64,000 nucleotides of DNA from Variovorax sp. OAS795 (GTDB lineage Bacteria; Pseudomonadota; Gammaproteobacteria; Burkholderiales; Burkholderiaceae_C), in the NCBI RefSeq assembly GCF_040546685.1, contig NZ_JBEPOH010000001.1, forward strand, positions 4,526,001-4,590,000, given 5' to 3'. The notes below the pieces were generated by a model that saw only the letters and a list, made by a program, of their open reading frames with translations, was not told the DNA's origin and did not search any database. The translations under genes and the position numbers were made by a program. Below, one piece after another: positions 6,219 to 13,557 of this stretch (the first letter of the stretch is position 1; every line of letters begins with the position of its first letter).

Positions 6219-9200
6219 ATGAACAGGATATTCCGCACTCTCTGGAACCCCGCCCGCGACGCCTGGGTGGCCGCACCCGAAATCTCACGCGGCCATGCGC
6301 GCTCGGCCAGCGTGGGCAGTGGCCATCGCGCGGCTGCGCTGTGCGGCCTGCACGCCATCGCCATCGCGGTGCTGTCCCTCAGTGCCGCCACGGCGCTGGC
6401 CGCTGGCGGCGTGGGGGGCCAGCCCACCAACACCGACCTGCACGGCGGATCGGGCGGCAGCGACGGCAGCGGCGGCGCGGGCGGCCTGAACGACATCAAC
6501 CTCGGGGCCCGCGGCGGGGACGGCGGCTCGTCGACCGAGGCAGGCGTGGCAGCGGGGTCCGCCGCGAGCATCGGCTCTTTCGCGGGAGCGACCGCAGGCG
6601 CGGGCGGTGCGGCGGGCGCGTTGCCGGGGGCCGACGGCAGCGCGGGCGAATCGCAGACGGGCGGGTTCGGCGCGGGCAACGGCTATGGCGGCGGGGGCGG
6701 CGGCGGGTCCTACGGGCTTGCGATCGGTCCCGGCACGGCCACGTCCTTCGGCAGCATCACGGGAGGCCGCGGCGGCGCCGGAGGCGATGGCTTCTGGGCG
6801 GCCGGCGGCGGCGGCGCGGGGGGCTACGGGTCGACGCTGACCGGCCCCGTCGGCAACTACCATGCCTTCGGCAACTCGACGGGCGGCGCCGGCGGCAAGG
6901 GCGGCGATGCGTATTCGCAGGGCGGTGGCGGCGGCAGCGGAGGCGGCGGATTCTTCCTCCGCGCAACAGCGCCGGGCCTCGGCTTCGCCAACAGCGGCAC
7001 CATCGCCGGCGGTGCCGGTGGGGCCGGCGGCTCCGAACTGCTGCCGGCCCGCTTCAACGCGGCGGGCGGCGGCGGCGGTGCCGGTGGGCACGGCGTCACG
7101 CTGGCCGGCAGCACCGTGGCGGTCGAGAACACCGGCCAGTTCATCGGCGGCGCCGGGGGCGCGGGTGGTGCCAGCGGCGGCGGAGCGGGCGGCAGCGGCG
7201 GGCCCGGCAGCGGCGGCGATGGAGGCATCGGCTTCTGGTCGACCGGCGCGGGCGCCACGCTGGTCAACGGCGGCACCATCGCCGGAGGAACCGGAGGCAT
7301 CGGTGGCGCCAACAGCAATGGCGGTGCGAGCGGCGCCCATGGCACCGGCGGCGAGGGCGTGGTGGGCGCCAACCTCTCCATCGCCAACAACGGCACCATT
7401 GCAGGTGGCCTCGGCGGCGATGGCGTCACGCGCGCCGCGGCCGTGAGATTCACCGGCGGCAGCAACAGCCTGACGGTGAACGCGGGCTCGTCGCTCACGG
7501 GCGCCATCGGCATCGACAGCGGCGCCACCGCCCGCGTGATCGCCGGCGCCGGCGGCCTGGACATGGCCAACGCGCTGCGGATCGATGGCACCGGCACCAT
7601 CGACACCCACAGCCATGCGATGGCGTGGTCGGGCCCGATCTCGGGCGTCGGCGGGCTCGTGAAGGATGGCGCGGGCACGCTGACGCTCGGCGCAGCCAGC
7701 ACGTACACGGGCCCCACCAACGTCGCCGCGGGCACCCTGCGCGCGGGCGCGGCCAATACCTTCAGCCACGCCAGCAACTTCACGGTGGCGCCGGGCGCCA
7801 CGCTCGACCTGGCCGGCCACAGCCAGACCATCGCATCGATGGCCATCGGCGGCACCGTCTCGCTGCTGAGCAGCGTGCCGGGCGCCACGCTCACGGTGCA
7901 GGGCCCCTGGGTCGGCAACGGCGGCACGCTGCGCCTGGGCACGGCCCTCGGCACGAGCAGCAGCCTGAGCGACCGGTTGATCCTGTGCGGGTGCTCGGCC
8001 GTCGCGAGCGGCACCACATTCATACAGATCACCAACCTGGGCGGCCTGGGCGCGCTGACCACCGGCAGTGGCATCGAGGTGGTGACCGCGATGGACGGGG
8101 CCACCACGACCGCACAGACCACCCGCAGCGCCTTCGTTCTCGCGGGCGGCCACGTCGACGCCGGCGCCTACGAGTACCGCCTGCATGCGGCCGACGCTGC
8201 AGGTGCGGGCGAGAACTGGTACCTGCGCTCCGGCATCATCGTCGTGCCGCCGCCTCCTCCTCCTCCTCCGCCGCCGCCTCCTCCTCCACCTCCACCACCT
8301 CCGCCGCCGCCCGCGCCACCGGGACCGCCTGCGCCTCCAGGACCGCCTGTGCCGCCTGCGCCACCGGCACCGCCTGCGCCACCAGCGCCACCGGGCCCGC
8401 CGACGCCTCCGGCTCCGCCGGGGCCACCACAGGGCAACGGCCGCGACGGCAACCCGCTGGGCGAAGACGTCGGCACGCCATCGACCGTGGCGGTGCCCAC
8501 CTACCGCGTCGAAGTGCCGCTGTACGCCGCGCTGCCCGAGCAGTTCCGCCAGGCCAACCTGGCCATGGTCGGCAACCTGCACCAGCGCGTGGGCGACGAC
8601 GATGGCGCGGCCCATGCCGCCACCGCCGCGAACAGCCAGGGATACCGCCAGGTCTGGGGCCGCCTCATCAGCATGGACCGCACCATCGGCCAGGCCGGCA
8701 CCGCCAGCGCGCGCAGCGAGGGGCGGCTCACGGGCTTCCAGGCCGGCGTCGACCTCTGGGCCAACCCGGCCTGGCACGTGGGCCTGTACGTCGGCGAGCT
8801 CGAGGGCCGCATGGACGTGAACGGCTTTGCGCGCGGCCTGCCGAACTACGCGGTCGGTTCCAGCCAGCTGCGCAGCCAGTACCTCGGTGCCTACGCCACC
8901 TGGAAGAACGACGGCGGCCTGTACCTGGACGGCGTGCTGCAGGCCGGCCGCCACCGCTACACCGCATCGACCGCGCTGGGTTCCGCGGGCTCGGGCAAGG
9001 GCAACAGCCTGCTGGCGTCGATCGAGGTGGGCCAGGGCTTTCGGATCTCGCCGGACTGGATCGTCGAGCCGCAGCTGCAGCTGGTGCACCAGCGCGTGAG
9101 CCTGGACGACGCCAGCATCGCCGGGGCGCTGGTGCAGCAGGACAGCCACAGCGGATGGGTGGTGCGCGCGGGTGTCCGCATCAAGGGCGAGATGACCACG

Positions 9201-9470
9201 GGTGCCGGCCCGCTGCAACCCTATGCGCGGCTGAACCTCTACCGCAGCAGCAGCGGCACGGACGTCACGCGCTTCATCGGTCCGGCGGGCTACACCGACA
9301 TCGCCAGCCGCACCGGCGGCACCAGCACCGAGCTGGCCGCGGGCGCCACGCTGCGGCTCACCCCGGCCATGAGCCTCTATGGCGAGGTGGGCAAGCTGTG
9401 GGCCTCGGGCGGCGGGGCGCGCGTGAAGAGCGGCATCAACGCCAGCGTGGGGCTGAAGGTCCGCTGGTGA
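6219..9470 (+). CDS. Glycine-rich autotransporter (type Va secretion) with PATR repeat and pertactin-like barrel
   Basis: The 1,083-residue product begins with an extended signal peptide: MNRIFRTLWNPARDAWVAA is the ESPR motif, followed by a hydrophobic core ending ATALA near residue 61. The passenger (about 62-420) is built of GGxGG-type repeats, AGGAGGxGG being the commonest. A passenger-associated transport repeat (GGLVKDGAGTLTLG, then TYTGPTNVAAGTL) lies near 477-505. A proline/alanine linker occupies about 675-738, and the translocator barrel runs from about 805 to the end, finishing in SVGLKVRW with the terminal aromatic required for BAM insertion. AGGAAGG stands just before the ATG. The passenger likely acts as a surface adhesin or matrix protein; no protease or lipase motif is visible. 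Confidence 0.92.
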   Translation: MNRIFRTLWNPARDAWVAAPEISRGHARSASVGSGHRAAALCGLHAIAIAVLSLSAATALAAGGVGGQPTNTDLHGGSGGSDGSGGAGGLNDINLGARGGDGGSSTEAGVAAGSAASIGSFAGATAGAGGAAGALPGADGSAGESQTGGFGAGNGYGGGGGGGSYGLAIGPGTATSFGSITGGRGGAGGDGFWAAGGGGAGGYGSTLTGPVGNYHAFGNSTGGAGGKGGDAYSQGGGGGSGGGGFFLRATAPGLGFANSGTIAGGAGGAGGSELLPARFNAAGGGGGAGGHGVTLAGSTVAVENTGQFIGGAGGAGGASGGGAGGSGGPGSGGDGGIGFWSTGAGATLVNGGTIAGGTGGIGGANSNGGASGAHGTGGEGVVGANLSIANNGTIAGGLGGDGVTRAAAVRFTGGSNSLTVNAGSSLTGAIGIDSGATARVIAGAGGLDMANALRIDGTGTIDTHSHAMAWSGPISGVGGLVKDGAGTLTLGAASTYTGPTNVAAGTLRAGAANTFSHASNFTVAPGATLDLAGHSQTIASMAIGGTVSLLSSVPGATLTVQGPWVGNGGTLRLGTALGTSSSLSDRLILCGCSAVASGTTFIQITNLGGLGALTTGSGIEVVTAMDGATTTAQTTRSAFVLAGGHVDAGAYEYRLHAADAAGAGENWYLRSGIIVVPPPPPPPPPPPPPPPPPPPPPPAPPGPPAPPGPPVPPAPPAPPAPPAPPGPPTPPAPPGPPQGNGRDGNPLGEDVGTPSTVAVPTYRVEVPLYAALPEQFRQANLAMVGNLHQRVGDDDGAAHAATAANSQGYRQVWGRLISMDRTIGQAGTASARSEGRLTGFQAGVDLWANPAWHVGLYVGELEGRMDVNGFARGLPNYAVGSSQLRSQYLGAYATWKNDGGLYLDGVLQAGRHRYTASTALGSAGSGKGNSLLASIEVGQGFRISPDWIVEPQLQLVHQRVSLDDASIAGALVQQDSHSGWVVRAGVRIKGEMTTGAGPLQPYARLNLYRSSSGTDVTRFIGPAGYTDIASRTGGTSTELAAGATLRLTPAMSLYGEVGKLWASGGGARVKSGINASVGLKVRW
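8242..8433 (+). repeat. Proline-codon repeat in the autotransporter linker
   Basis: A near-uninterrupted CCN run (CCT/CCG/CCA with GCG/GCC) encodes a polyproline tract, then PPAPPG-type units. It is prone to slippage, so copy number may vary among strains. It joins passenger and barrel and probably spans the periplasm or cell wall as a stiff rod. Confidence 0.8.
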
Positions 9471-9471
9471 G

Positions 9472-9489
9472 GCGCCGCGCCTCCGGCGC
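9472..9489. terminator. Hairpin after the autotransporter gene
   Basis: GCGCCG and CGGCGC pair perfectly around a six-base loop, between the TGA of the autotransporter gene and the convergent stop at 9489. There is no T-tract, so it may act as a weak bidirectional terminator. Confidence 0.4.
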
Positions 9490-10151
9490 TACGGCCTTGG
9501 CTGGGTCGTCACGGCCGCGGGCGCACCCGGCATCGCGAGCGGGTTGAGTCCCGGCGCCGCCACGCGCGTCAGCGTGTTGCGATCGGTGTGGTGGAACGGC
9601 TCGGCCTGCCCCTGGATCTGCATCACGGTGTCCTGGTCGTACGACCAGGTGCCGTCGGCATTGAGGGTCACCGTGATGTTCCACGCCACCGTGGTGAAGG
9701 CGTGCTCGATGAAGGGGTTGGACACGATGCCGTTCACCAGGCTGCCGCGCTCGGCACTGAGCGTGAAGCGCGTGTCGCCGGCCTTGGCATGGCCGCTGGC
9801 CATGGCCACCTGCCCGCGCGGGATGGCCAGCGTGTGCAGCACGGTCTCGGTGGCCGGCTCCCAGAGCCAGTAGCCCACCTGGTCGTGGTACATCTTGGTG
9901 AGGCCGGGCTTGTGGATGTAGGTGTGGTAGCGCAGCCCATACAGCAGCTGCGGGCCGTTGGTCTGCGGATCGATCGGCTGGAGCTCGTAGCGCTCGATGT
10001 AGACCTGCGTCTTCGGGCCTTCGCGCTTGGGCTTGACGTCCACGCCGCGGCTGCCCTCCCAGACGCCGGCCATGGCCCGGAGCGGCCCGAGGTTGGCCAG
10101 CGTGTCGGGGTCGGCGTCGGGCTCGGTGTAGATGTCTTCGGACGGGTTCAT
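9489..10151 (-). CDS. Nitrobindin-like heme-binding beta-barrel (FABP/THAP4 family) protein
   Basis: The 220-residue protein has the nitrobindin layout: GPLRAMAGVWEGSRG supplies the GxWxGxG strand near residues 22-36, then IERYELQPIDPQTNGPQLLYGLRYH, a strand pattern ending GYWLWEPATETVLHTLAIPRG. The C-terminal part ends in an unstructured Ala/Pro tail. Known members bind ferric heme in a ten-stranded barrel through a histidine and react with nitric oxide or peroxynitrite; which histidine serves here cannot be fixed by eye. It is the last minus-strand gene after the PurA-like gene, 58 bases downstream, so co-transcription is possible. No signal peptide is present. Confidence 0.75.
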   Translation of the reverse strand: MNPSEDIYTEPDADPDTLANLGPLRAMAGVWEGSRGVDVKPKREGPKTQVYIERYELQPIDPQTNGPQLLYGLRYHTYIHKPGLTKMYHDQVGYWLWEPATETVLHTLAIPRGQVAMASGHAKAGDTRFTLSAERGSLVNGIVSNPFIEHAFTTVAWNITVTLNADGTWSYDQDTVMQIQGQAEPFHHTDRNTLTRVAAPGLNPLAMPGAPAAVTTQPRP

Positions 10152-10209: not shown

Positions 10210-11562
10210 TCAGGAATCGTTCCCCGCATGCAAGGACCGCACCGCGCCGCGCGTGGGCCCGAACGCGCCATGGCGCACGCGCCGGCCGCTCAGCGCTTCG
10301 ACACGCTCGATCCATGCCTCGGCATCGGCGATGGCATCGGGCTCGTAGAGCGGCTGCGCGCTTTCCAGCAAGCGGGTCAGGCGATGCTGCCGGTCGAGAT
10401 CCGGCGCACCGCCGGTGAACGGAAGCGATGCAAGGCGGGTCCCGTCATCGGCGCTGCGATAGCCCGCGCACCAGCGCAGGCCCGCACCGGCCACCGCGTC
10501 CAGGTGGCTCGCCACCAACCCGTCGAGCGGGCCGACCGCGTCGAGCGCATAGCGCAGCAGCACCGCATCGGGATGGCCGCGGCGGAACGCGCCCTGCCAG
10601 CCTTCGTCCGCGTTGTGCGGTTCCGCCATCCGCGCGTCGAGCGCGCGGTCGTGCGTGGGCAGCGGCCCGGGGCCGTGGCGCGTGAGATAGCTGCGCAGCA
10701 CGCCCAGGTGCTGCACGGGGGCGCCGATGCCGGCGTCCCGCAGCACGGCTTCGACGGCGGCGGTGGAGATGGTGCTCCAGGTGGTGTGCGGATGAAAGCC
10801 GCGCCACTCGTCCAGCAGCACGCCCTGCGCGCCTTCGAACAGCACGCTGCCGGGACGCGCGAGGCGCTGGCCGATGGCATCGGCACTTGCGGGCGGCGAC
10901 AGCCGCAGGCATGGCGCCGCCGCATCGAGCCAGCGCCGTCCAACCCCCGCATCGCCGAGCAGCGCCAGCTCCTGCGCGGCTTCGGCATGCGGCGCTGCGA
11001 AGCCTTCGAATTCGCGCCGCAGCGTGATGCGCAAGGCCTCGAGCTTGTCGAGCGCGAGCGAGGGCTGCCGCAGGTCGCCGTAATGCAGGGCCGTGCCGGG
11101 TGAGGCCAGCGCCTGCCGCACCGTTTCGCCGACACCCACGCCGCAGCTGCCATGCGCCGCCGCGCCCCGGGCCCATTCGCGCAGGCGACCCGCGGCCTGG
11201 TGGAACGGCGTGGTGACGCGGCAGCGCGCATCGACCAGCAGGCGAGCGAAGGCGTCGCCCACGCCCACGCGGCAGAGCGCTTCTTCCTCGACGCGCAACG
11301 CGGTCGGGTGCACCACGACGGGGCTGGCGAGCACGGTCGCCACGCCGGCGTGGAAGCTGCCGGCGCCGAACTGGGAGAAGGTGTGGTGGCGGCCATCGGC
11401 CAGCACGACGTTGTGGCCGGCCTGCGCGCCGCCGTTGAAGCGCACCACGGTGTGGGCGCGCAGCGCGCCGCACAGGTGGTCGGTGAAGAGGCCCTTGCCG
11501 CAGTCGCCGAAGCCGAGGCCGAGCAGCGAGACGTAGCGCGCCGGGTGCGCCGCGGAGCTCAC
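10210..11562 (-). CDS. Divergent adenylosuccinate-synthetase homologue (PurA superfamily)
   Basis: This 450-residue protein keeps PurA hallmarks: the N-terminal P-loop-like GFGDCGKG (17-24; housekeeping PurA has WGDEGKGK, and the catalytic Asp is kept), NGGAQAGHN with the catalytic His at 50, FEGAQGVLLD (242-251) and YLTRHGPGPLPT (292-303). It lacks the TTxRGIGP signature, having GSCGVGVGET (138-146) instead, and its C-terminal third differs, so the substrate is probably not plain IMP plus aspartate. GTG 11562 is used because the VWA gene stops at 11570 and no ATG fits. The gene is co-directional and nearly contiguous with the VWA and pseudokinase genes, which argues against a housekeeping role. 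Confidence 0.75.
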   Translation of the reverse strand: MSSAAHPARYVSLLGLGFGDCGKGLFTDHLCGALRAHTVVRFNGGAQAGHNVVLADGRHHTFSQFGAGSFHAGVATVLASPVVVHPTALRVEEEALCRVGVGDAFARLLVDARCRVTTPFHQAAGRLREWARGAAAHGSCGVGVGETVRQALASPGTALHYGDLRQPSLALDKLEALRITLRREFEGFAAPHAEAAQELALLGDAGVGRRWLDAAAPCLRLSPPASADAIGQRLARPGSVLFEGAQGVLLDEWRGFHPHTTWSTISTAAVEAVLRDAGIGAPVQHLGVLRSYLTRHGPGPLPTHDRALDARMAEPHNADEGWQGAFRRGHPDAVLLRYALDAVGPLDGLVASHLDAVAGAGLRWCAGYRSADDGTRLASLPFTGGAPDLDRQHRLTRLLESAQPLYEPDAIADAEAWIERVEALSGRRVRHGAFGPTRGAVRSLHAGNDS

Positions 11563-11569
11563 ACTGCCG

Positions 11570-12541
11570 TCAACCGAAGAGACGCTTCCACCACGAGGAG
11601 CGCGGCGCCGAGCCGGCCGAAGGCGGCGCACGCCGGGGCGCCAGCGGGTCGAGCAGCGCGGCATAGCCATCCAGCGCATGCAGCACGCCGGCGACGCGCT
11701 GCTTTTCCATGCCGGTGGCGGACATCACGCGGGCCAGGCCGTCGAGATTGGGCACGGCCTTTTCGGTCAGCGCCACGATGCCGGCCGCCACGGCGCAGGC
11801 ATCGTCGGGCGAATCCATGCAGATCACGTGGTCGCCGAGCAGCTCGCGCCAGCGCGGCTCGCAGCGGCGGCGGCGCTGCGCATCGGGAATCAGGAAGAAC
11901 AGGTGGCAGGTCTCGGCCGCGGCGGCGATGGCTTCCTCGATCGGGATGTCTTCATCGAGCTTTTCGCCGATCAGCCCCTCGACCTGGCGGTGCGAGACGG
12001 CGGGATACGGCAGCTCGTCGCCCGTGACGAACAGGTAGCCCCGCTTGCCGCGCTTGACCCAGCAGTCCATGTCGGTGTGCTGCGCCATCACGTAGAAGGC
12101 CAGCTCGTAGCTTTCTTCGCCGCTGCCGCCGCCCCCGCCTTCGAGGTAGCTCCAGGTCAGCCACTGGTCCATGAGCGGCGCGGTCGATTCGAACTGGCCC
12201 ACCTGCAGCGGCGCATGGTCGGAGTTGGCGTCGCCGATGGCCATGAACAGGAGCTGCGGATCGGCCACGCCGCAATCGGTCAGCAGCTTCATGAAGGTGG
12301 GCAGTTCGCGCCGCGCGAGGATCTGCGGGATGTCGCCCATCGAGCCCGTGACGTCGAGCGCGAACGCAATGCCCAGCGAATTGGGATGGTCGGCGTTGTC
12401 GCGCGACTCGCGCACCTTGAGCCCGTGCGGGTTCATCAGCGGGTGCGTGGCGGTCTGGGTGAACACCTCGGAGCCGGACTTGGCCGCGCGGTCGGCAATG
12501 AGTGCCGTATGAGCGGCGTGCGAGTAGTTTCCGTAGCCCAT
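11570..12541 (-). CDS. VWA-domain protein with MIDAS-like motif
   Basis: The 323-residue protein has a von Willebrand A core: a hydrophobic strand, then ALDVTGSMGD with the MIDAS-like DxTxS at residues 63-67, a later TWSYLEGGGGGSGEESYELA segment, and GYLFVTGDELPYP (169-180) whose Asp can complete the metal site. The N-terminus (MGYGNYSHAAHTALIADRAA) resembles VWA proteins that occur beside kinase-like genes rather than integrin-like ones. There is no signal peptide or TM helix, so it should be cytoplasmic. It lies between the pseudokinase (38 bases) and the PurA homologue (seven bases). The likely role is a metal-dependent scaffold or chaperone for its neighbours; this is inference. Confidence 0.85.
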   Translation of the reverse strand: MGYGNYSHAAHTALIADRAAKSGSEVFTQTATHPLMNPHGLKVRESRDNADHPNSLGIAFALDVTGSMGDIPQILARRELPTFMKLLTDCGVADPQLLFMAIGDANSDHAPLQVGQFESTAPLMDQWLTWSYLEGGGGGSGEESYELAFYVMAQHTDMDCWVKRGKRGYLFVTGDELPYPAVSHRQVEGLIGEKLDEDIPIEEAIAAAAETCHLFFLIPDAQRRRRCEPRWRELLGDHVICMDSPDDACAVAAGIVALTEKAVPNLDGLARVMSATGMEKQRVAGVLHALDGYAALLDPLAPRRAPPSAGSAPRSSWWKRLFG

Positions 12542-12579
12542 GGGTGTGTGCTCCTCTGTGTTTTTCTGCCGGGTTGTCT

Positions 12580-13557
12580 TCAGGCGCCGGGCGTCGGATC
12601 GAAGTGGACGAACTGCGGCGCGCCGAAGGCTTCGTGCGACGCGCTGGAGAGCGCCTGCTCGATGCCGCGCGCGCCGAGCCGCTGGCATTCGGCGGCGTCT
12701 TCGCTGCAGCGGCGCAGCAAGGCGGCCAGCGGCGCGGGCGTGCGGGCGCCGAGGCCGGGGCTGTCGTCCGACGTGCCGCCGTGCAGCACTGCGCGCACGG
12801 TCCAGGCGCTTTGCATCAGGTCGCGCGCCGCGGCGGCGGCATGCGCCGAGCCCGATGCCTGCCGCGCCCGCGACCAGCCGACGAGCAGGACGCCATGGTC
12901 GCGCGGATGCACGAGCGCATGCGCGGGTGACAGGTCGCCGTGGGTCCAGTCGGCGTCGTGCACGAAGGCCAGCACCTCGAGCATGCGGCGCCAGAGCCAC
13001 ACGGCATGGCGCGCATCGATGCCATTCGGCTGGGCCTGCCGCACGTCGTGCAGGCTGCCCCAGAAACCCGCCGGGTGGCGCAGCACCAGGGCCTGGCGTA
13101 CGCCTTCGGCAAGCCCTTCGGCCAGCCCGGTGCCCACGGGTTGCGGCAGGCGCCGGGTGAAATACGCAGCGCCCGGCAGGGCCAGCGCCTGCAGGGCTTG
13201 CAGCACCGCGGCCTCGCGCAGCAGCACCGCGCCATCGGCGGACTCGCGCGCCAGCTTGACCGTGACGCGCTCGGGCAGTGCGCCGAGCCGCTGGGCCAGC
13301 AGCACCTCGCTGTGCTCGCCGAGGGCCAATGGTGCCAGCACCCGGTAGCGCGCGCCGCGCCATTGCAGCATGCGCCCGGTGTCGCCATTCGCGGCATTCG
13401 CCCGGCGCAGCGCTGCGCGGAAGCTCTCGCGTTCGACGGTTTCCCCGCCGCGCGTGATGGTGGCGCCGCAATAGCTGCAATTGACGGTGCGCCAGCGCGC
13501 GGCACGCGGCAAGGGCGCCGAGCATTGCGGGCAGGCAAGGGCAAGCAGCGTGAGCAT
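12580..13557 (-). CDS. Zinc-ribbon protein-kinase-like (probable pseudokinase) protein
   Basis: The 325-residue product starts with a zinc ribbon, CPQC (9-12) and CSYCG (27-31), followed by a kinase-like fold: a Gly-loop region LALGEHSEV (77-85), VTVK with the ATP-binding Lys at 101, an alpha-C Glu in LLREAAV (115) and HGDLSPAH (206-213). The metal-binding residues are altered: the catalytic-loop Asn is His213, and the DFG motif reads VGW (226-228). Catalysis is therefore doubtful, though nucleotide binding is possible. The same zinc-ribbon-plus-kinase layout occurs in TerY-P-type VWA/kinase triads. The start is nine bases after the CNNM/CorC gene stop, so the genes are in one operon. Confidence 0.75.
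   Translation of the reverse strand: MLTLLALACPQCSAPLPRAARWRTVNCSYCGATITRGGETVERESFRAALRRANAANGDTGRMLQWRGARYRVLAPLALGEHSEVLLAQRLGALPERVTVKLARESADGAVLLREAAVLQALQALALPGAAYFTRRLPQPVGTGLAEGLAEGVRQALVLRHPAGFWGSLHDVRQAQPNGIDARHAVWLWRRMLEVLAFVHDADWTHGDLSPAHALVHPRDHGVLLVGWSRARQASGSAHAAAAARDLMQSAWTVRAVLHGGTSDDSPGLGARTPAPLAALLRRCSEDAAECQRLGARGIEQALSSASHEAFGAPQFVHFDPTPGA

Follow-up and report, generated by a model that had tools for sequence, protein, structure and literature searches.

A divergent PurA homologue recurs with a VWA protein and a kinase-like protein in bacterial and phage genomes

The three-gene cassette and its distribution

We analysed a 64,000-nucleotide stretch of the Variovorax sp. 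OAS795 genome (assembly GCF_040546685.1, contig NZ_JBEPOH010000001.1, positions 4,526,001 to 4,590,000 of the forward strand), referred to below as the window, in which three consecutive minus-strand genes form what we call the triad. These encode a zinc-ribbon pseudokinase (12580..13557, 325 amino acids, called from the open reading frame (ORF), alignments and a motif table), a VWA protein of the integrin I-like type (11570..12541, 323 amino acids) and PurA2, a divergent enzyme with the adenylosuccinate-synthetase fold (10210..11562, 450 amino acids, GTG start). The genes are separated by gaps of 38 and 7 bases, which confirms the run of pseudokinase, VWA protein and divergent PurA described in a first-pass annotation of this DNA. 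Pfam recognised PurA2 (173.9 bits), all kinase matches remained below threshold, and no Pfam family was assigned to the VWA protein in a scan of five adjoining window proteins. All three triad proteins match PHROGs (phrog_1211, 8e-66; phrog_2971, 4e-47; phrog_3043, 6e-16), the last of these being the match of the pseudokinase, to a family named 'kinase'. We also find a separate, ordinary PurA elsewhere in the same genome (577 bits), and Variovorax sp. Root318D1 and OV700 have VWA proteins with 96% identity to that of the window.

We found that the triad is a real and widespread three-gene system, and apparently an undescribed one, as no description of it was found in the openly licensed literature, which leaves out most subscription papers. 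Searching with VWA alignments, we obtained 313 relatives in viral contigs (from IMG/VR, with the viral status taken as given there) and, using a 4-row alignment, at least 546 in genome contigs, of which 80 and 79, respectively, were kept. PurA2 is encoded at 148 of these 159 loci according to profile hidden Markov models, with all three genes present in 71/79 genome loci (VWA and PurA2 in 2 more) and in 29/80 viral loci (VWA and PurA2 in 46 more). The expectation that a divergent PurA would keep VWA and kinase-like neighbours in many distant genera was thereby borne out. Seven of the 11 loci lacking PurA2 (five viral ones, L153 and L169) seem to be cut by the contig end judging by their coordinates, L062 being the least certain, and PurA2 is apparently really absent at L144, L155, L164 and L170. 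The reverse search, starting from PurA2, yielded 493 viral relatives, 80 of which were kept; the VWA gene is present at 77/80, and in each of the three remaining loci PurA2 lies less than 900 bases from the contig edge. With a second kinase profile, a kinase match was found at 62/80 of these PurA2-derived viral loci.

The order of the genes is fixed, the kinase-like gene lying upstream of the VWA gene in 116/119 cases and PurA2 downstream in 160/163, always on the same strand. The same three-gene order is seen on Rhodococcus, Tsukamurella and Agrobacterium plasmids, and Mycobacterium phage Sebata has the kinase gene first, then VWA, a small gene and PurA2. Over 50 loci the pairwise distances of VWA and PurA2 are correlated (Mantel r 0.87, with 0/999 permutations as high), as expected when genes are inherited together. 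Near-duplicate Variovorax loci were removed before neighbour clustering and retained in the counts of gene presence and order, and neighbour genes, gene order and the Massilia palindrome-site genes discussed below were called with a purpose-written codon-bias caller. A small charged protein of about 110-127 amino acids was observed at 33 phage loci, directly before the VWA gene in L046 (L046:6618-7001); the one member scanned has no Pfam or PHROG match, and none of the 30 loci listed among these 33 has a kinase match.

VWA relatives occur in 14 named genera (Variovorax, Polaromonas, Accumulibacter, Pseudoduganella, Xenophilus, Rugamonas, Massilia, Janthinobacterium, Archangium, Myxococcus, Leptolinea, Planomonospora, Planobispora and Actinomadura) and in assemblies labelled Verrucomicrobia, Acidobacteria, Fibrobacteria, Chloroflexi, Myxococcota, Eremiobacterota and Uhrbacteria. 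Within the window's own lineage the occurrence is patchy: 8/25 genomes of the genus and 0/16 others, 2/150 genomes at the family level (both in the genus) and 6/299 at the phylum level (one weak, at 3.9e-4), each of the genus, family and phylum counts including the window's own genome. When 56 genomes of the class were searched for PF00709, the window's genome was the only one with two matches. The cassette is also common in phages themselves. With tblastn of PurA2, 226 of 50,697 phage records were matched, including 190 from mycobacterial phages, 10 from Rhizobium phages and 6 from Vibrio phages. Some other matched records resemble, by eye, ordinary PurA lying in bacterial sequence that was deposited as phage. 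Cluster C mycobacteriophages carry PurA2. Two of the nominally viral contigs, L014 and L015, resemble Variovorax chromosome, with VWA and CorC proteins each 89-90% identical.

PurA2 and its two partner proteins

PurA is a textbook enzyme, and its known functional sidestep in phages is PurZ, the maker of Z-DNA. Upon aligning 106 PurA2 sequences, we observe that the catalytic residues are kept (D13 in 103, with 3 gaps; H41 in 105, with 1 gap; Q224 in 106), as is the guanine-binding Asp of PurA (D333 in 104), and that the TTxRGIGP motif is gone. The kept catalytic Asp and His and the loss of this motif agree with what had been read from the window alone. Its place is taken in the window by the stretch HGSCGVGVGE (11125..11154, minus strand); the T129 position is C or V in 104/106, and the narrow pattern GS[CTS]GxG[IVFY] occurs in only 58/106. 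Furthermore, the aspartate-binding loop of housekeeping PurA, TTTGRxR, is gone in all 106, with Q at the T301 position and a gap at the R303 position in 106/106 each. An N...WQGAFR loop stands in its place in the window (10582..10614, minus strand), N..QG is found in 102/106, and TT[GA]R at any position in 1/106. The phosphate pocket is changed as well, N38 being replaced by Q in 103/106.

PurA2 misses the NCBIfam PurA equivalog cut-offs (134.9 bits vs 402 and 116.6 vs 395.55) and that of PurZ (24.6 bits vs 300). In a tree including PurA and four PurZ, but no PurZ0, 65 PurA2 rows fall on one side of a branch of length 1.64 with a Shimodaira-Hasegawa-like approximate likelihood ratio support of 99, outside both housekeeping PurA and PurZ; the tree comes from a quick search with no bootstrap and carries a long-branch warning. 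Judged by its sequence, PurA2 adds a third branch to the PurA superfamily. RefSeq labels mycobacteriophage PurA2 '2-aminooxy adenylosuccinate synthetase' (e.g. NC_041993.1 gene 263), the same label as on phage PurZ. In the available part of a 2026 survey of phage PurA homologues, 251 PurA and 151 PurZ are counted among 767 (PMC12884076), which by subtraction leaves 365 in neither group, and our guess is that PurA2 is among these unnamed homologues. The available part of a jumbo-phage survey contains no mention of adenylosuccinate (PMC7824862), and in that of a Kuttervirus paper an adenylosuccinate synthase and a VWA protein are listed in separate tables (PMC10892097).

The VWA protein has the integrin I-like vWA fold and a metal-ion-dependent adhesion site (MIDAS) of the form DxTGS with a downstream Asp. 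In the window the motif is DVTGS (residues 63-67; 12341..12355, minus strand), and D63, G66, S67 and D175 are conserved in 50/50 rows and T65 in 49/50. No solved structure was related to it by sequence at E up to 1. Two VWA matches per locus were observed in L150-L152, L154, L155, L159, L166 and L168 (three frames in L166), which are mostly myxobacterial or delta-proteobacterial.

The pseudokinase carries a zinc ribbon of the pattern C9-x2-C12 ... C27-x2-C30 (13468..13533, minus strand). The residues of active kinases are mostly lost across its relatives, the HRD Asp being present in 10/29 rows and the DFG Asp in 8/29. The window protein keeps the former and lacks the latter, consistent with the degenerate kinase fold proposed for it in the first-pass annotation. 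In some actinobacterial, rhizobial and phage members a possible DnaJ-like helix with HPD replaces the zinc ribbon, a weak call in that the Pfam J-domain matches (E 0.025 and 0.008) are under the cut-off and HPD was scored with a loose regular expression. Among the pseudokinase N-termini counted, three (L002, L005 and L094) are copies of the locus in the window.

Links to NAD metabolism and other neighbours

Next, we investigated the genomic company of the triad, which in two lineages ties it to genes of nicotinamide adenine dinucleotide (NAD) and ADP-ribose metabolism. In L119 (Rhodocyclaceae), L123 (Accumulibacter) and L162 (a Pseudomonadota assembly), the triad ends a NAD-salvage operon, opposite which a divergent NrtR gene lies. 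The operon genes before the triad encode a nicotinamidase-like protein, nicotinate phosphoribosyltransferase and NAD synthetase, joined in L119 and L123 by a nicotinamide mononucleotide (NMN) adenylyltransferase/Nudix gene. Curated cut-offs were passed by nicotinate phosphoribosyltransferase (3/3 scanned) and NAD synthetase (2/2 scanned, those of L119 and L162 but not of L123); the NMN adenylyltransferase/Nudix proteins gave E values of 4e-97 and 6e-96, their best scores of 325.6 and 321.5 bits lying under the cut-offs of 397 and 409. The first gene is called nicotinamidase-like because its match is weak: there is a single one in L119 (4e-6) and none for the L162 counterpart, and the nicotinamidase-like proteins of L119 and L324 have no Pfam match at E up to 1e-3.

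NrtR-like neighbours of the triad are found in Accumulibacter-type, Massilia/Janthinobacterium, Planomonospora/Planobispora, Actinomadura, Rhodococcus/Tsukamurella and Rhizobiaceae lineages, which suggests that the NAD tie extends to further lineages. Seven of these neighbours were scanned, and the NrtR winged-helix domain exceeded the cut-off in six (L006 reached only 0.0037). As an estimate of chance rather than a test, three NrtR genes in a 7.5 Mb genome would place one in about 0.6% of 14-kb loci. From the intergenic regions we read a palindrome, TTAGTTKCANNNTGMAACTAA, and searched six genomes for it, allowing up to 3 mismatches; of the 24 sites found, 15 are at NrtR promoters. In 2/3 Massilia genomes it precedes the NrtR gene of the triad. 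The Massilia palindrome also lies before two further NrtR genes. One of them is divergent from a NAD-salvage operon, and KptA is encoded next to it; the other is divergent from a microbial PARG gene, close to which L322 has a gene for an ADP-ribosylglycohydrolase (a single member of each family at these sites was scanned). At the level of sequence, the module has a palindrome or an operon in common with NAD genes in the Accumulibacter-type genomes, where one operon holds both, and in 2/3 Massilia genomes. In actinobacteria no sharing with NAD genes was seen, an actinobacterial palindrome being found only before the triad's own NrtR (2/3 genomes, those searchable). In Massilia, a SPFH/Band 7 protein with a SHOCT tail is encoded between NrtR and the pseudokinase (L129:5026-6018, L131 and L132). 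Phage links to NAD are looser: NADAR is near a Vibrio phage copy, a gene annotated NMN adenylyltransferase/Nudix lies upstream in a Rhizobium phage, and L031 has a Nudix protein with a weak nucleotidyltransferase match.

Upon examining the other neighbours, the proposal that the upstream CNNM/CorC gene is the membrane part of the system was not upheld, and CorC was rejected as a component of the triad: its relatives occur at 28 loci (two of which repeat the window's genome), each assigned to Variovorax by title or genus, and the gene lies downstream on the opposite strand in L115 and L167. Following PurA2 in the window (9489-10151) is a THAP4-like heme-binding beta-barrel protein (4.5e-22), with relatives found at just 4 loci, the window's included. 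Beyond it, a plus-strand ORF of 1083 amino acids (6219-9470) has, by eye, long stretches that are glycine-rich or polyproline, and its C-terminus looks autotransporter-like. A family with one scanned member, an R2K-clade ATP-grasp ligase (PF18299, 1e-19), is found near PurA2 in 12 phage loci (L057:8130-8960 and 11 others). Within several kb of the phage triad there are TROVE/Ro60-like proteins (L004:12566-14074, L020, L023-L025, L027, L029 and L069), DUF2828-type proteins (L021, L022, L026, L063 and L091), RtcB relatives (L032 and L047) and a polynucleotide kinase (L003). These TROVE/DUF2828, RtcB and polynucleotide kinase neighbours hint at RNA repair, several such loci being near-copies.

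Proposed function and comparison with known systems

The recurrence of the three genes in the same order and the switch of NAD metabolism beside them in some bacteria indicate that the triad probably forms an undescribed nucleotide-processing system. Our specific reading, to which we assign a probability of roughly 45%, is that of a nucleotide-processing module in which PurA2 acts on a NAD- or ADP-ribose-related hypoxanthine nucleotide and the VWA protein and pseudokinase are accessory. PurA2 would be a GTP-dependent synthetase with the chemistry of PurA, in which a hypoxanthine-type nucleotide is phosphorylated at its 6-oxo group and an amine then displaces the phosphate. Since the aspartate loop is lost and the phosphate pocket changed, both partners in this reaction probably differ from those of PurA: an amine other than free aspartate and, instead of plain inosine monophosphate (IMP), another oxopurine nucleotide related to NAD or ADP-ribose, such as the inosine form of either. 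The most likely roles of the VWA protein, acting through a Mg site, and of the pseudokinase with its J-domain or zinc ribbon would be those of co-chaperone and scaffold, presenting a protein-bound substrate or switching PurA2 on. The earlier suggestion of a PurA-like nucleotide enzyme under the control of the other two thus survives in spirit, as a nucleotide enzyme with two accessory proteins, to which a NAD/ADP-ribose link is added in some relatives. In M. smegmatis, ADP-ribose is the NrtR ligand and releases NrtR from DNA (PMC6800001); in bacteria with NrtR, the module would be made upon accumulation of ADP-ribose, i.e. upon NAD turnover, provided that NrtR binds the palindrome and responds to this inducer, and phages would carry it for the same chemistry during infection. 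With somewhat less confidence, we consider it possible that a third functional PurA branch produces a novel nucleotide, plausibly a dinucleotide of the NAD or ADP-ribose type that is repaired or amino-modified at C6, in an undescribed NAD/ADP-ribose stress pathway common to bacteria and large phages, with the VWA co-chaperone and the pseudokinase as essential partners.

Several observations weigh against this proposal. NrtR-like neighbours occur at only 20 loci (15/79 genome, 4/6 plasmid, 1/80 viral-contig and 0/3 named phage loci), and no NrtR domain was found in the window's own genome, so that the window's triad must be controlled otherwise and the NAD link may be confined to certain lineages. 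The reversed palindrome, used as a control, gave 11 sites against the 24, nine of the 24 sites lie away from NrtR promoters, and in the third Massilia genome (L132) the triad's NrtR has no palindrome within 3 mismatches. The kinase-like gene was undetected at 48/80 VWA-found viral loci. R305 of PurA is retained in 103/106 PurA2, and an amino-acid carboxylate may therefore still bind. PurA2 could be a second adenylosuccinate synthetase working on IMP, aspartate and GTP, supplying AMP for NAD or phage DNA synthesis while the other two genes tune it, but this is unlikely given that the aspartate loop is universally absent, the phosphate-pocket residues are changed and the PurA score is far below the NCBIfam cut-off; moreover, the window's genome already has a housekeeping PurA, and for an ordinary enzyme the near-constant VWA neighbour would be superfluous. 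Alternatively, PurA2 might bind nucleotides as a switch, have no synthetase activity and signal through its partners, which do resemble signalling and scaffold proteins. The lost aspartate site would fit this reading, yet the catalytic Asp, His and Gln are nearly invariant, which makes it very unlikely.

A PurZ-like maker of a modified DNA base is suggested by the RefSeq label on the mycobacteriophage copies and by the ATP-grasp-type gene near PurA2 in phages, of which one was scanned. However, Ser stands at the Asp13 position in 4/4 PurZ, the clades are separate, and bacterial genomes and plasmids carry the module as well, with ordinary genes around it at the ten gene-called loci; we regard this reading as scarcely credible, and a function in Z-DNA as unlikely on the Asp13 position and the tree. 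A conflict system in a NAD/ADP-ribose arms race may hold alongside the nucleotide-processing module, with hosts undoing and phages countering ADP-ribosylation or NAD depletion, and the VWA protein acting as a peptide-binding chaperone for modified proteins, by analogy with the ARG-Nudix-vWA systems predicted in the available part of PMC9503650. This would suit the abundance of both genes in viral contigs and named phages, the patchiness in bacteria, the presence in Massilia of NrtR, PARG, ADP-ribosylglycohydrolase and KptA genes at these shared palindromes or next to them, and NADAR near the Vibrio phage copy. On the other hand, a PADLOC scan of four window proteins returned only weak matches to the kinase, the best being PD-T4-6 (E 4.9e-7), and no effector was found among the scanned neighbours, and we consider it rather unlikely. 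Most of the window being left unannotated, a defence island may still be present.

NAD/ADP-ribose metabolism is a main battlefield between phages and bacteria, and the NrtR link in some bacteria points the hunt for the substrate there. PurA2 represents a separate, widespread PurA branch with a rebuilt aspartate site, hardly ever seen without the VWA protein, and cluster C mycobacteriophages carry it under a RefSeq name that fits PurZ.

Finally, we compared the triad with known systems. Its kinase-like protein has weak similarity to the PD-T4-6 kinase, but the gene company differs and its catalytic residues are mostly lost. A TerY-P triad consists of a VWA protein, a kinase-like zinc-ribbon protein and a PP2C phosphatase partner, and the first-pass annotation had likened the present genes to this type on account of the first two. 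We reject this assignment, as no PP2C was found among the five adjoining window proteins or among the scanned representatives of recurrent neighbour clusters (only some were scanned), no Ter family was found among the proteins scanned, the kinase is degenerate, and PurA2 is present instead. The ARG-centric Nudix-vWA systems, in the available part of Iyer et al. 2022 (PMC9503650), share with the triad a vWA protein, in some lineages a Nudix-helix-turn-helix regulator, and an ADP-ribose theme. The triad differs in having no ADP-ribosylglycohydrolase: none was found among the scanned window neighbours, and that of L322 is beside another NrtR and not beside the triad. The main text of PMC9503650 contains neither 'PurA' nor 'adenylo'. 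The PurZ and PurZ0 enzymes of Z-DNA phages resemble PurA2 as phage-carried members of the PurA superfamily, but PurA2 has Asp where PurZ has Ser and forms a separate clade. Compared with PurA itself (PF00709), PurA2 lacks both the TTTGRxR loop and TTxRGIGP, has the N38 and T129 replacements together with K331 to H or C, and is set apart by its own clade and its near-constant VWA neighbour.

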